Part shown: positions 33,532 through 37,028 of the stretch, one piece after another | How positions within the stretch are numbered: position 1 is the stretch's first letter | Layout: each line of letters starts with the position of its first letter | Origin: Rhodanobacter panaciterrae | GTDB taxonomy: Bacteria; Pseudomonadota; Gammaproteobacteria; Xanthomonadales; Rhodanobacteraceae | Direction of reading: 5' to 3' | Assembly: GCF_014651895.1 (NCBI RefSeq) | Contig: NZ_BMXT01000001.1 | Coordinates: 1,240,001-1,304,000, forward strand | DNA length: 64,000 nucleotides | Notes under the pieces: generated by a model | Seen by the model: the letters and a program-made list of their open reading frames with translations, nothing else | Databases searched by the model: none | Told to the model about the DNA's origin: nothing | Translations under genes and position numbers: made by a program

Positions 33532-33982
33532 GGGGATGTCCTGCAGGGTTTGCGAACGAAGCTCGCGGCTTTGCTTGGCCCACTGGGTCAGCAGGTGCGA
33601 AACGCTCGTCAGTCCCCGTTTGGCGTATCACCCCGGAGGTAAACGTGTGTGACCAGAAAACGGAAACAACTTTCCTCGCTGCGACGGACGTAATGCCCGC
33701 GCAGTCGATGCTGTGGCTCTGGATGACGACCGACGCCGGCGCACTGTGTGCGACCGCGAATGCTTGCGTCAGATGGAGGGTGCGAGAAACAGCGGACTCT
33801 GACCTGCTGCCATCGCCTCGGCATCTCGCGAGAAATGCTGAAGCGCTGGGTCGCATCAGGCACTGACCCGCGTGACGTGGGCGTGCAGGGCGCACTTGTC
33901 TGCATGCGCGGCTTCCCCACGTTCACTCGCAGGACATCTGCAACGACAGAGACTTCATGGTTTGAACCAGCGGAAACAGCTA
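33532..33982. promoter_or_regulatory. 451-bp divergent intergenic region
   Basis: It lies between the leftward autotransporter and the rightward ClpP-like gene and must hold both promoters. Reading frames cross it, but none has a plausible start and ribosome binding site. A GCAAAGCC motif on the minus strand recalls the c-di-GMP riboswitch core, but the remaining consensus is absent. No other structure was recognised. Confidence 0.4.
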
Positions 33983-35125
33983 GTGCATCACAGCCATGCG
34001 GTTGAACATTCCTCCGGTCGGCGCGGATCGCGCCGGTATCTGGTGCCATGCAGCCTGTGGCTGGCCGGCTGCCTTGTGGCGATGGGCGCCCACGCACACG
34101 GCAGCGGAGCGCCAGCGCCAGCACGCTCGCAAGCGCAGGCGCCCGAACGGCTGTCCATCCAGCTCAACAACGACCGCATGACCCTGGCGATCACCAAGGT
34201 GCCGCAGGTCTATCTGTATGGCGTCATCGACGCCGATGCGCCGCAACGCTTCGCCGCGATGGTGGCGGAAGGCAAGATCCCGACGGGCTCCGACATCTAC
34301 CTCAATGCCACCAGCGGCGACCTGCAGGCCGGCATGGCGTTGGGGCGGCTGTTCCGCAAGGACGCGATGGTCACCCACCTGGGCACGCCACGGCGCAGCC
34401 GGCTCGCAACGAAGGTCAACAAGACCGCCACCTGCGTCGGTGCATGCAGCTACGCCTACTTCGGCGGCCTCTACCGTTGGGTGCCCGCGGGCAGCGATCG
34501 TTTCGGTCTGCCTTCCTACGACGCGGTGGCCGCGCAGAAGTCGGAAGACGTCGCCGCGTATCTGAAGGAAATGGATATCGACCTCGGCCCGTTGACTGCC
34601 ACGCTGGCGACATCCCGCGATCCGGTAGTGTGGCTGACGACCGACCAGATGCTCTCGGCGGGGCTGGCCAACAACGCGCGGCTCCCGCTCACGGTGCAAT
34701 CGCTGCTGTCACCGCCAGCACCGTCGGTGACGCTCGACCAGGTGGATCGCAACGGCCGGCACCGGCTGGTCATCCAGTGCCGGCCGGGCCAGCTCACGAT
34801 CACCTCGTTCGATATGGTCGGTGTCGGCGCCGCGCGGGAGATCCTGCGGCGCGGCACACGCGCCTATATCGAAATCAACCGGCAGGAAACCCTGCTACAG
34901 CCGCCCGGCGGCGCCCGTGCCGTAGACGATGCGGTGACGATGATGCACGCCTATCCGCCCACCCAGATCGGTCACCTGCTGCTCGCACGCAATATTGGCG
35001 CCTGGGTCGACGGCAAGAACAAATCGTTCCGCAACGGTTTCGTCTTCGAACTCGACCCGGTCAGGGAAGACTTGAAGAAGTATTACAGCGCGTGCTGGAA
35101 AGCGGCGCCGTGGCCGACGGACTGA
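33983..35125 (+). CDS. periplasmic ClpP-like (COG3904-type) protein
   Basis: About 380 residues from GTG 33983, with GGAA 7 bp upstream; the start is uncertain. A twin-Arg-containing n-region and a hydrophobic core (LVPCSLWLAGCLVAMGAHA) form a signal peptide. The next ~150 residues follow the crotonase/ClpP-like pattern of COG3904 proteins: YLYGVIDADAPQRF, LNATSGDLQAGMALGRLFRK, TCVGACSYAYFGGLYR, PAGSDRFGLPSYD. The C-terminal ~150 residues are a separate domain without recognised motifs. At the usual nucleophile site the sequence reads C-V-G-A-C where C-x-S-A-C is expected, so protease activity is doubtful. It converges on the palindrome array. Confidence 0.7.
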   Translation: MHHSHAVEHSSGRRGSRRYLVPCSLWLAGCLVAMGAHAHGSGAPAPARSQAQAPERLSIQLNNDRMTLAITKVPQVYLYGVIDADAPQRFAAMVAEGKIPTGSDIYLNATSGDLQAGMALGRLFRKDAMVTHLGTPRRSRLATKVNKTATCVGACSYAYFGGLYRWVPAGSDRFGLPSYDAVAAQKSEDVAAYLKEMDIDLGPLTATLATSRDPVVWLTTDQMLSAGLANNARLPLTVQSLLSPPAPSVTLDQVDRNGRHRLVIQCRPGQLTITSFDMVGVGAAREILRRGTRAYIEINRQETLLQPPGGARAVDDAVTMMHAYPPTQIGHLLLARNIGAWVDGKNKSFRNGFVFELDPVREDLKKYYSACWKAAPWPTD

Positions 35126-35184: not shown

Positions 35185-35523
35185 CTCGGCAAGCCGGACA
35201 AGACGCTCGGCGTGCCGAGCAAATAACCCGGAGCGCCGAGAAAATAGCTCGAGGCATCGAGAAAAAAGCTCGGAAGGTCGAGCAAAAAAGCCCTGAGCAT
35301 CGAGCTGATGAGCTCGAGGCGTCGGGCAAATAACCTGGAACGCCGAGAAAATAACTTGAGGCGTCGAGTAAAAAGTTCGGGACGCCGAGTAAAAAGCTCG
35401 AAGCGCCGAGCCAGGAATTCGACACGTCGAGTGGATGTGCTCGGCGCGCCAGCCAAAAAGCTGCAAGCGTCGAGTACGAAGCTCGGTAAGCCTGGTAGAA
35501 AGCTCGGATGGCCGGACAGTACC
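35185..35523. repeat. array of 16 tandem ~21-bp imperfect palindromes
   Basis: Sixteen contiguous units of 20-22 bp were delimited by reading, starting at 35185, 35206, 35228, 35248, 35269, 35291, 35313, 35335, 35356, 35376, 35397, 35418, 35440, 35461, 35482 and 35503. The consensus is CTCGR-N4-YCGAG followed by an A-rich linker of about 7 bases. Each unit can fold as a 5-bp stem with a 4-base loop. The closing base pair covaries: G-C in eight units, A-T in five, G-T in two, mismatched in one. Units of 20 and 22 bp interrupt every frame, so it is not protein-coding. It fills the gap between convergent genes. There are no spacers, so it is not CRISPR. Confidence 0.9.
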
Positions 35524-35651
35524 CTCGTTTGACGGAGCCGAAGGTTAGACGGGGGCCGGGCGCAGCAGGGTGGGTGATAAGTGGCTCTGACTCGGATACT
35601 GCCTGAGCTATTGCCTGAGCTGCCGGTCATACTTTCTGTCGTTCGACATGG
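35524..35651. other. spacer between palindrome array and nuclease-like gene
   Basis: 128 bp with one further CTCG half-unit at 35524 and a 12-bp direct repeat (TGCCTGAGCTAT at 35600-35611, TGCCTGAGCTGC at 35612-35623). No ORF or terminator was recognised. Confidence 0.5.
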
Positions 35652-37028
35652 TTACGACGTTGGTCTGGACTTTAGTTCGTTCAACCTTTCCAAACCACGC
35701 ATACACAATTCGTCGGCGTCTACCGGGTCTTGGACTTTGACAACCTGGTTAACTAGGTTCTCTTGCGTTATCAGAAGCACGTCGTGACGAGCGATTTCCA
35801 CGTCCGACGCATGTATGTGCGGCCTGGGAGTCTGGCAGACGAGAACGGCCATTACCGTATTTGAGTGCTTGCCTCGCGTAAACGCGGCGCGCAGCGCCTC
35901 ACGGCGTAAGACCAGGTTGCCGATCTTGGCCATGGCATCAGGGGTCTTAATGGTGCATTCGACTAGTACCACTTGGCCGCCGGGAGTCACGCCAATGATA
36001 TCCGGACCTTCGTCCTCCAGCGGCAGTAACGGAGCAAAGCCGCTGAGGAACATCAGTGCTGCGACGGCCTTTTCGAAAACGCGGCTGTCCGTAGAATTCA
36101 GGCGCGCCTTTATTTTCGTCAGGTCATGATCGAATTCTTGTGTGGCCGCAAACCTGACGTTTTTCGACAGTGACGGGTCGCTGAACCACTGACGTTGCAC
36201 GTAAGTATTGCCAATGGATAGCGCTACGAGCGCCCTATAAGCGTTCGGCAACTCCACCGCACCAGTTCCGCGCACGCGCTTAGTATCAGGCTGAAGTGCC
36301 CATGTCAGGTGCTTGCGAAGCTGCTTTCTTAGGCTGATGCCTGTCGGAGGAGAACCCATCACCGCCACGCTGACGGTATTGATGTCAACGGATGGCATCA
36401 CATCTATGACCAGGTTGAGATTTTCGTCTGCAAGCTTGCCGTCCTGAACTGCAATCTGGGCAGGAGGATGAACGATGACTGCAATGGATGGCAGTCCTCC
36501 AGGGTGACTGAATTCGTTGAGCCCGAGCCACAACAGAACATCGGTATAACCGTCAAATGGCACTTCAGCGCGACGTAGATCGTCGTCTAGAGATTGGGGC
36601 AGAACGAACTGTTCGGCGCCCATCGCAGTAACGGTCATATGGATCATATTGATCCAAGGGTTTGGCGCAGATCCACGAAGGTAGTGATACATGCTCGTGC
36701 GCGACGAGAGAGCCATTTTCACACTAGGCAAGTTGATCTGACCATTCAAAGCGTCATCCAAAACTCTATGTGCTTCCACTAGTACTTGGGCTGGCAGAAC
36801 CATCTGACCGATTTCGAAATTACCCGCCTTGATGTGGAAGTTGAATTGCTTCGAGTCTTGGTTGCTATTCATCCATGGGTAAAACAGCACCATGGCGTGA
36901 ATGACCTCTAGGCTACTGCCGATGTCTCTCGCAACATAGCGATACTCAACGTGATACGACTCGCACAACCATTCTCTTGCAGCTTTTGAAAAGTTGTCTC
37001 GGAAACTGTTGACCGAAAGATCATTCAT
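35652..37028 (-). CDS. hypothetical protein with C-terminal PD-(D/E)xK-like domain, probably acquired
   Basis: 458 residues. The last ~150 residues look like a restriction-endonuclease fold: an FEKAVAALMFLSGF helix, then GPDIIGVTPGGQVVLVECTIKT, which places Asp and Glu as in Mrr-type D-(12-14)-E-x-K sites, then a helical LRREALRAAF. The strict lysine of E-x-K is replaced by Thr in ECT, with a Lys two residues later. The N-terminal 300 residues match nothing I recognise. Sampled lines have 43-60% GC against about 65% in the flanks, suggesting horizontal transfer. A defence or repair role is possible but unproven. It is isolated, between the palindrome array and the thiolase gene. Confidence 0.65.
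   Translation of the reverse strand: MNDLSVNSFRDNFSKAAREWLCESYHVEYRYVARDIGSSLEVIHAMVLFYPWMNSNQDSKQFNFHIKAGNFEIGQMVLPAQVLVEAHRVLDDALNGQINLPSVKMALSSRTSMYHYLRGSAPNPWINMIHMTVTAMGAEQFVLPQSLDDDLRRAEVPFDGYTDVLLWLGLNEFSHPGGLPSIAVIVHPPAQIAVQDGKLADENLNLVIDVMPSVDINTVSVAVMGSPPTGISLRKQLRKHLTWALQPDTKRVRGTGAVELPNAYRALVALSIGNTYVQRQWFSDPSLSKNVRFAATQEFDHDLTKIKARLNSTDSRVFEKAVAALMFLSGFAPLLPLEDEGPDIIGVTPGGQVVLVECTIKTPDAMAKIGNLVLRREALRAAFTRGKHSNTVMAVLVCQTPRPHIHASDVEIARHDVLLITQENLVNQVVKVQDPVDADELCMRGLERLNELKSRPTS

Follow-up and report, generated by a model that had tools for sequence, protein, structure and literature searches.

Plasmid iterons are direct repeats, few in copy and each about two helix turns long, that lie beside the gene of a winged-helix Rep protein and are plasmid-specific in sequence, and on the F plasmid sopC adjoins sopB. 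Small dispersed repeats (21-27 nt) are found in Nostoc. F parS/sopC comprises twelve 43-bp repeats holding ten 16-bp inverted repeats (PMC6238139). In parS of pSM19035, short sites follow one another directly and in mixed orientation, and full activity requires a run of four or more (PMC9499535). PARCEL elements are described as tandem palindromic repeats across distant microbes, with 75-nt coding units inside ORFs (PMC2996958), and REPs as usually exceeding 100 copies per genome (PMC2817692).

The stretch of Rhodanobacter panaciterrae DNA analysed here (64,000 nt, the window) had been proposed in a first-pass annotation to contain a sixteen-unit array of ~21-bp palindromes at 35185-35523. The array is present there, and sixteen units were counted. 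The features of the region are as follows.

35185..35523, no strand: tandem array of 16 dyad-symmetric units, read directly from the sequence
35524..35544, no strand: degenerate 17th unit, with 8 of 10 motif letters matching
33872..35125, plus strand: upstream gene, its 3' end 59 bp before the array (context, outside the element)
35652..37028, minus strand: downstream convergent ORF of 458 aa (context only)

Each unit has the form CTCGR-N4-YCGAG followed by a 7-8 bp linker that is mostly A-rich. The array measures 339 bp, with thirteen units of 21 bp and three of 22 bp; the 22-bp units noted earlier were thus borne out, while the 20-bp units were not, as direct reading gave no 20-bp spacing between unit starts. 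Sixteen sites with at least 8 of 10 motif letters fall in these 339 bp, compared with a mean of 1.77 and a maximum of 8 in 2000 mononucleotide shuffles and with 1.84 sites per equal length elsewhere in the window. TRF reported period 21 over 35214-35410, and Rfam gave no match at gathering score within the window. The gene at 33872-35125 has orthologues in much of the genus Rhodanobacter and no Pfam or NCBIfam match. The 458-aa ORF also had no match in these two databases and was passed over by a codon-usage model; it may have been acquired recently at this site beside the array.

The array class proved a member of no family tested, and the literature searched, which left most subscription journals outside, yielded no description of such arrays. 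The comparison includes arrays of the same pitch and other cores that lie beside genes of two protein families, denoted B and F5. As in F parS/sopC, tandem repeats carry inverted-repeat sites, and the 43-bp F repeat is close to a 42-bp superunit seen here; however, the arrays here are chromosomal as far as seen, have many cores and show no plasmid or viral match in the searches made. A plasmid or phage origin of the arrays was accordingly rejected within the searches made. The B- and F5-linked arrays, though not the window array, resemble centromere arrays in having phased symmetric sites beside a small gene. Unlike centromere arrays, they show no conserved partner gene beside B, as no second family occurred within 1.5 kb in more than three of 60 B loci, and hence there is no sign of a ParA, ParM or TubZ motor. 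Iterons share the roughly two helix turns per repeat and the small gene alongside, but the units here are dyad-symmetric and more numerous, no Rep was found, and the B members tested had no match in Pfam, NCBIfam or PHROGs. Contiguous short sites in mixed orientation are common to pSM19035 parS and the arrays here, whereas the plasmid sites are 7 bp long, without spacers and accompanied by ParA and ParB. PARCEL elements are likewise tandem, palindromic and widespread, but the pitch here is 21 bp and four of 45 arrays are closed in all six frames. REP/BIME elements are also intergenic palindromes, but here there are few long arrays of 21-bp pitch, with 22 unit matches in the own genome against more than 100 dispersed copies. 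Unlike CRISPR spacers, the linkers here are 7-8 bp long and repeated in kind rather than unique.

A consensus search of relatives had been suggested as a check on the array, and it does recur: as an orthologue in R. glycinis, in two further arrays of the own genome and in many other genomes. The two own-genome arrays have the CTCGR core and lie on the same contig (C1) as the window array.

C1, from 640111: second own-genome array, pattern match to 640272 and traced to about 640363
C1, 958737-958771: short own-genome array, pattern match

The 22 unit matches in the own genome were obtained at up to one mismatch (14 + 8), and 13 of them fall in two arrays; a reversed-pattern control gave 5 + 6 at the same tolerance. 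A two-unit pattern with up to two mismatches was matched in 10 of 233 genomes of the family. In R. glycinis (G020) the orthologous array lies behind the same upstream gene, whereas in G034 and G216 no array was detected within 700 bp behind the orthologue of that gene, despite the orthologue being equally close (87-88%).

Scanning named genomes for the CTCGR core gave 87 stretches, 54 of which carry 56 arrays of at least six units, although a few of these, L145, L079 and L147 among them, may be unrelated repeats. The hosts include Rhodanobacter, Lysobacter, Stenotrophomonas, Pseudoxanthomonas, Ralstonia and Methylomonas among others, as well as many cyanobacteria, Hymenobacter and termite-gut Bacteroidales. 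A gene of family B, F5 or a third family, A, was present in the flanking DNA examined at 19 of the 54 loci, and none at the other 35. The window array has neither a B nor an F5 gene alongside, and its upstream gene belongs to none of the three families. No transposase was found among the 25 families listed out of 146 (79 flanking proteins). Family A consists of 120-aa proteins, 74-90% identical to the first member. In Rhodanobacter sp. DHG33 its gene stands 31-38 bp upstream of a CTCGR array at four loci; at two loci the distance is greater.

L194, 4306-4668: family A member
L195, 3315-3665: family A member
L196, 3711-4073: family A member
L197, 3598-3960: family A member
L193, 5519-5881: family A member
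L189, 1534-1896: family A member

The first-pass annotation had read positions 5 and 10 of the units as a covarying stem pair. Its counts for the 16 units were exact (G-C 8, A-T 5, G-T 2 and one mismatch, which is A-C), and these units taken by themselves show a weak association (two-sided Fisher test, p = 0.035). Across 57 arrays with 649 units the combinations were GC 253, GT 158, AC 133, AT 90 and other 15, against an independence expectation of about GC 250, GT 161, AC 136 and AT 87. An array-stratified test of 64 arrays (734 units, 717 with R and Y) gave 290 G-C observed and 287.8 expected (z 0.51), and positions 2-13 (z 1.02) and linker ends 15-21 (z 1.73) were tested on the same arrays. 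Homologous units, compared over 10 pairs of arrays and 105 aligned units (the pairs are not all independent), showed nine double changes at positions 5 and 10, compared with about 6.7 under independence. Covariation of positions 5 and 10 was found in none of these three larger sets. The window's own count is most simply put down to chance or to common ancestry of the units; the case illustrates that a single array may give an impressive covariation count even though no fold is conserved.

In the same homologous units, single changes over the five stem pairs comprised 53 from paired to unpaired, 47 from unpaired to paired and seven between unpaired states, and of the double changes eight keep pairing and six do not. 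The half-sites are thus held without compensation, and the idea that the stem is kept while its sequence changes gives way to a pattern in which mostly one side changes at a time. Divergence was 27% and 24% at positions 5 and 10 and 26-29% in the loop, compared with 5-11% at C1, C3, G4 and C11-G14 and 18% at position 2; linker positions 16-17 were likewise conserved (6-11% differ). For the CTCGR core, selection for a fold, which the first-pass annotation had itself staked on covariation in relatives' arrays, does not hold up, as the paired positions there do not covary; the best fit is its other suggestion, a symmetric protein site. Over the 64 arrays, every second unit is more similar than a shuffled order would give and adjacent units are less similar, which amounts to the 42-bp superunit. 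Loop complementarity between neighbouring units, suggested by the arrays of Rhodanobacter sp. DHG33, was considered separately and rejected (lag-1 z -1.6 over 64 arrays).

Family B was found by clustering ORFs near arrays, and lies near arrays in 11 loci, ten of them within 206 bp and one at 1.9 kb. Its members have ~155-164 aa where the starts are clear and are slightly acidic (median pI 5.6, range 4.7-9.8). The AlphaFold model is all-helical with one long helix (pLDDT 84.7); fold searches found nothing at E ≤ 0.001, the best VIA Z being 4.8, and the B profile gave nothing below E 0.3 against PDB sequences. No plasmid match was obtained with one query, nor could a relative on viral contigs be confirmed. 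The family is present in 21 of the 25 array-bearing genomes searched, which were picked via the CTCGR core and so are not a random sample (the genome of L138 is not among them). It is also present in 16 of the 147 own-family genomes and, within the family of G262, in 39 of 99. Two of 398 Pseudomonadota carry it, one being the own genome, in a search that scored only nine candidates per genome for most genomes. The own genome has a single B gene, ~68 kb outside the window; the array next to it has a different core and a detector score of 7.7, under the threshold of 9.

That detector knows only period 21 and palindromy (thresholds 9, the lower, and 12). Of 60 B loci, a set that includes B fragments, 32 had an array less than 600 bp from the gene (28 on the 3' side) and three had one farther out; nine of the 32 (L203, L204, L206, L228, L234, L235, L236, L243 and L262) were already known from CTCGR searches. 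The cores differ between the B-linked arrays, while pitch and symmetry persist, and one B clade has its array on the 5' side though the cores differ. In a Nostocales B set, arrays were detected near 27 of 27 genes (26 without L322, a heptamer-repeat locus) and in one of 27 far flanks. The detector's null came from the GC-rich window, and the far flanks and a lag-only test, in which period 21 is the sole criterion and each locus's other lags serve as the null, are fairer controls.

By the lag-only test, three B sets had arrays near 15 of 30, 15 of 30 and 22 of 27 loci, the last of which may count L322, compared with 0, 2 and 3 far ones. Combined, 52 of 87 B loci have arrays; those of the own family and of the family of G262 are best matches only. 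The earlier B and Nostocales arrays were chosen partly by palindromy. The lag-only arrays were chosen without it, and their palindromy over four sets was strong (Fisher 1.6e-16, 5.6e-16, 9.2e-17 and 2.9e-21), with p ≤ 0.05 for 14 of 15, 15 of 15 and 14 of 22 individual arrays in the three B sets. Because the earlier loci were best-scoring copies, 40 further Nostocales B copies were tested, 20 at 174-193 bits (of 21 additional copies in that range, the one omitted lay at the edge of a contig) and 20 at 141-156 bits. The lag-only test was positive near 39 of these copies, in each case 3' of the gene, and in four of 40 far flanks; the support gained concerns the link with B alone. In the own-family and array-bearing-genome sets, neither test found an array at about half of the B copies; array-less B genes include L245, L246, L248-L250, L252 and others.

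Family F5 occurs in termite-gut Bacteroidales; of nine genomes searched, six gave five to nine matches each, a count that includes fragments. Its proteins have ~220 aa, with a helical part and a C-terminal part that resembles FN3 domains in a fold search, a likeness that says nothing about function. An array lies directly 5' of the F5 gene in 28 of the 30 loci returned, and the lag-only test was positive at 29 of 30 near and three far. Of these 29 arrays, 21 are palindromic at p ≤ 0.05, and 21 end 35-96 bp before the start of the F5 protein match. None of 52 within-genome pairs of F5 arrays exceeded a core similarity of 0.6, and ten pairs whose proteins are 79-88% identical had core similarities of 0.39-0.60 against a background of 0.35. 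In L268 and L272 of one genome, where the proteins are 88% identical, arms are common to both arrays. Since cores mostly differ beside near-identical F5 proteins, a role of the neighbouring F5 as the sequence-specific binder is disfavoured.

The controls for the lag-only test were empty: none of 25 loci of the window array's upstream gene, taken from genomes without that array, and none of 20 loci (L296-L315) of DUF6261, another multicopy family of the same Bacteroidota. Six genomes of termite-gut Bacteroidales gave 3-12 DUF6261 matches each; by the detector three of the 20 loci reach threshold 9 and none reaches 12, and the family was dropped as a further array carrier. On the cyanobacterial side of the control comparison, the background is the family of G262 only.

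Pitch is held across these sets although the cores differ. Spacings were exactly 21 bp in 393 of 428 cases for B-linked arrays, 286 of 294 for Nostocales B and 267 of 272 for F5, by a segmentation that penalised departures from 21. A plain lag comparison of 32 B arrays gave matches of 0.55-0.62 at 21, 42 and 63 only, among the lags listed, while lags 14 and 28 gave 0.33-0.34 and the rest 0.23-0.28. Symmetry persists between arrays of different core, and mismatches are roughly strand-symmetric, with G-U 124 vs A-C 98 in B-linked arrays and 73 vs 88 in F5 arrays. The class is apparently wide and undescribed, spanning Pseudomonadota, Cyanobacteria and Bacteroidota.

Our best guess, by analogy with centromeres or iterons, is that the array may serve as a double-stranded DNA platform for a cooperative dyad-symmetric protein that would mark or regulate the neighbouring locus, a reading to which we give somewhat less than an even chance. 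A symmetric protein reading double-stranded DNA rather than a fold is suggested by the way half-sites and 21-bp pitch are held. The half-sites, here RCTCGR and YCGAGY, point in opposite directions by turns, with their centres 10 and 11 bp apart, which puts all of them on roughly one face of the helix and gives a dyad axis about every 10.5 bp. A dyad-symmetric oligomer would then be predicted to assemble cooperatively on the array and mark or regulate the adjoining locus, as on plasmid iterons or centromere arrays, and arrays of different core might act as private addresses. We infer that a protein binds, that phasing is the selected property and that the neighbouring gene may be affected. B, mostly acidic and helical, and F5, with helices and an FN3-like domain, are candidate binders, and they do not look like known DNA-binding proteins. 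More tentatively still, we propose a widespread chromosomal system of B or F5 genes with dyad arrays, in which cores differ between copies and are quickly replaced while pitch and symmetry stay, so that a cell with several copies may hold several distinct DNA addresses. It would do on the chromosomes of three or more phyla what iterons and centromeres do for plasmids, and the window array would count as an orphan with the CTCGR core. If this is true, several phyla carry helically phased self-symmetric arrays linked to protein families whose tested members are unannotated. A gene and array with differing cores would be a handle for finding the binding protein and its function, and the array class offers a clear test between a DNA platform, an RNA structure and a satellite.

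A neutral or selfish satellite, in which slippage makes the 21-bp units, quasi-palindrome correction symmetrises them and genes merely mark sites of persistence, is a serious rival, if an unlikely one. Fast turnover of cores together with high unit identity in many F5 arrays speaks for it, as do the many arrays without a B or F5 gene alongside and the patchy presence of the window array, which occurs in G000 and G020 and is undetected behind the same gene in G034 and G216. However, the arrays keep the same pitch in three phyla, their half-sites are conserved more than their loops, and the array frequencies at F5 loci (29/30), B loci (52/87) and further Nostocales B loci (39/40) stand against 0/20 in the control multicopy family.

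That the arrays work as hairpins of RNA or single-stranded DNA, with 10-20 of them in a transcript that is structured, processed or bound and with a core free to change if pairing is kept, seems to us doubtful. Palindromy is indeed kept while cores change, and the window array as RNA folds better than shuffles on both strands (z -8.0 and -5.5), which should be expected of any palindrome array. Compensatory changes are not in excess in homologous units or over the 64 CTCGR arrays. The roughly equal G-U and A-C mismatches disfavour RNA pairing, because pairing of one-strand RNA would favour G-U. Single-stranded linkers need no exact 21-nt pitch, and B-DNA phasing fits better than RNA because length is held while sequence turns over. 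Furthermore, arrays often lie on the 5' side of the gene or beyond its terminator-like site: such a site occurs within 120 nt after the B stop in 28 of 59 loci, compared with 93 of 971 random stretches, and where both site and array are present the best array window starts beyond the site in 11 of 13. Held pitch, half-unit dyads, uncompensated half-sites and strand symmetry are together better explained by a phased platform of double-stranded DNA than by folded RNA.

It is improbable that the arrays are stacks of bidirectional intrinsic terminators or REP/BIME-like elements between convergent genes. The window array does sit between convergent ORFs and has five terminator-like sites on its minus strand compared with 1.1 in shuffles, but the orientation of genes around 57 arrays, by rough gene calls, is mixed (co-oriented 26, divergent 9, convergent 9, undetermined 13), F5 arrays are upstream of their genes, and linkers may be A-rich or T-rich on either strand. 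A protein of heptapeptide repeats (21 bp being seven codons), to which most units as multiples of three, a 189-aa minus-strand ORF spanning the window array and at least one stop-free frame in 41 of 45 arrays might point, is very improbable given the frame shifts made by 22-bp units (three in the window), the stops in all six frames of L104, L113, L133 and L149 and variable positions (2, 5, 10 and 13) that are symmetric rather than third-codon, and the window array is very probably non-coding.

Two further observations concern the cyanobacterial loci. A conserved 93-aa protein with no family match is encoded ~0.6-0.8 kb from arrays in several Leptolyngbya-like cyanobacteria, and this protein with its nearby arrays probably represents one orthologous locus.

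L072, 4903-5184, minus strand: example of the 93-aa protein

At L322, a heptanucleotide repeat (CTCAGCA-type) lies 5' of B, where other Nostocales B genes have a nearby 21-bp array, and the relation 21 = 3 x 7 may link the two kinds of repeat.
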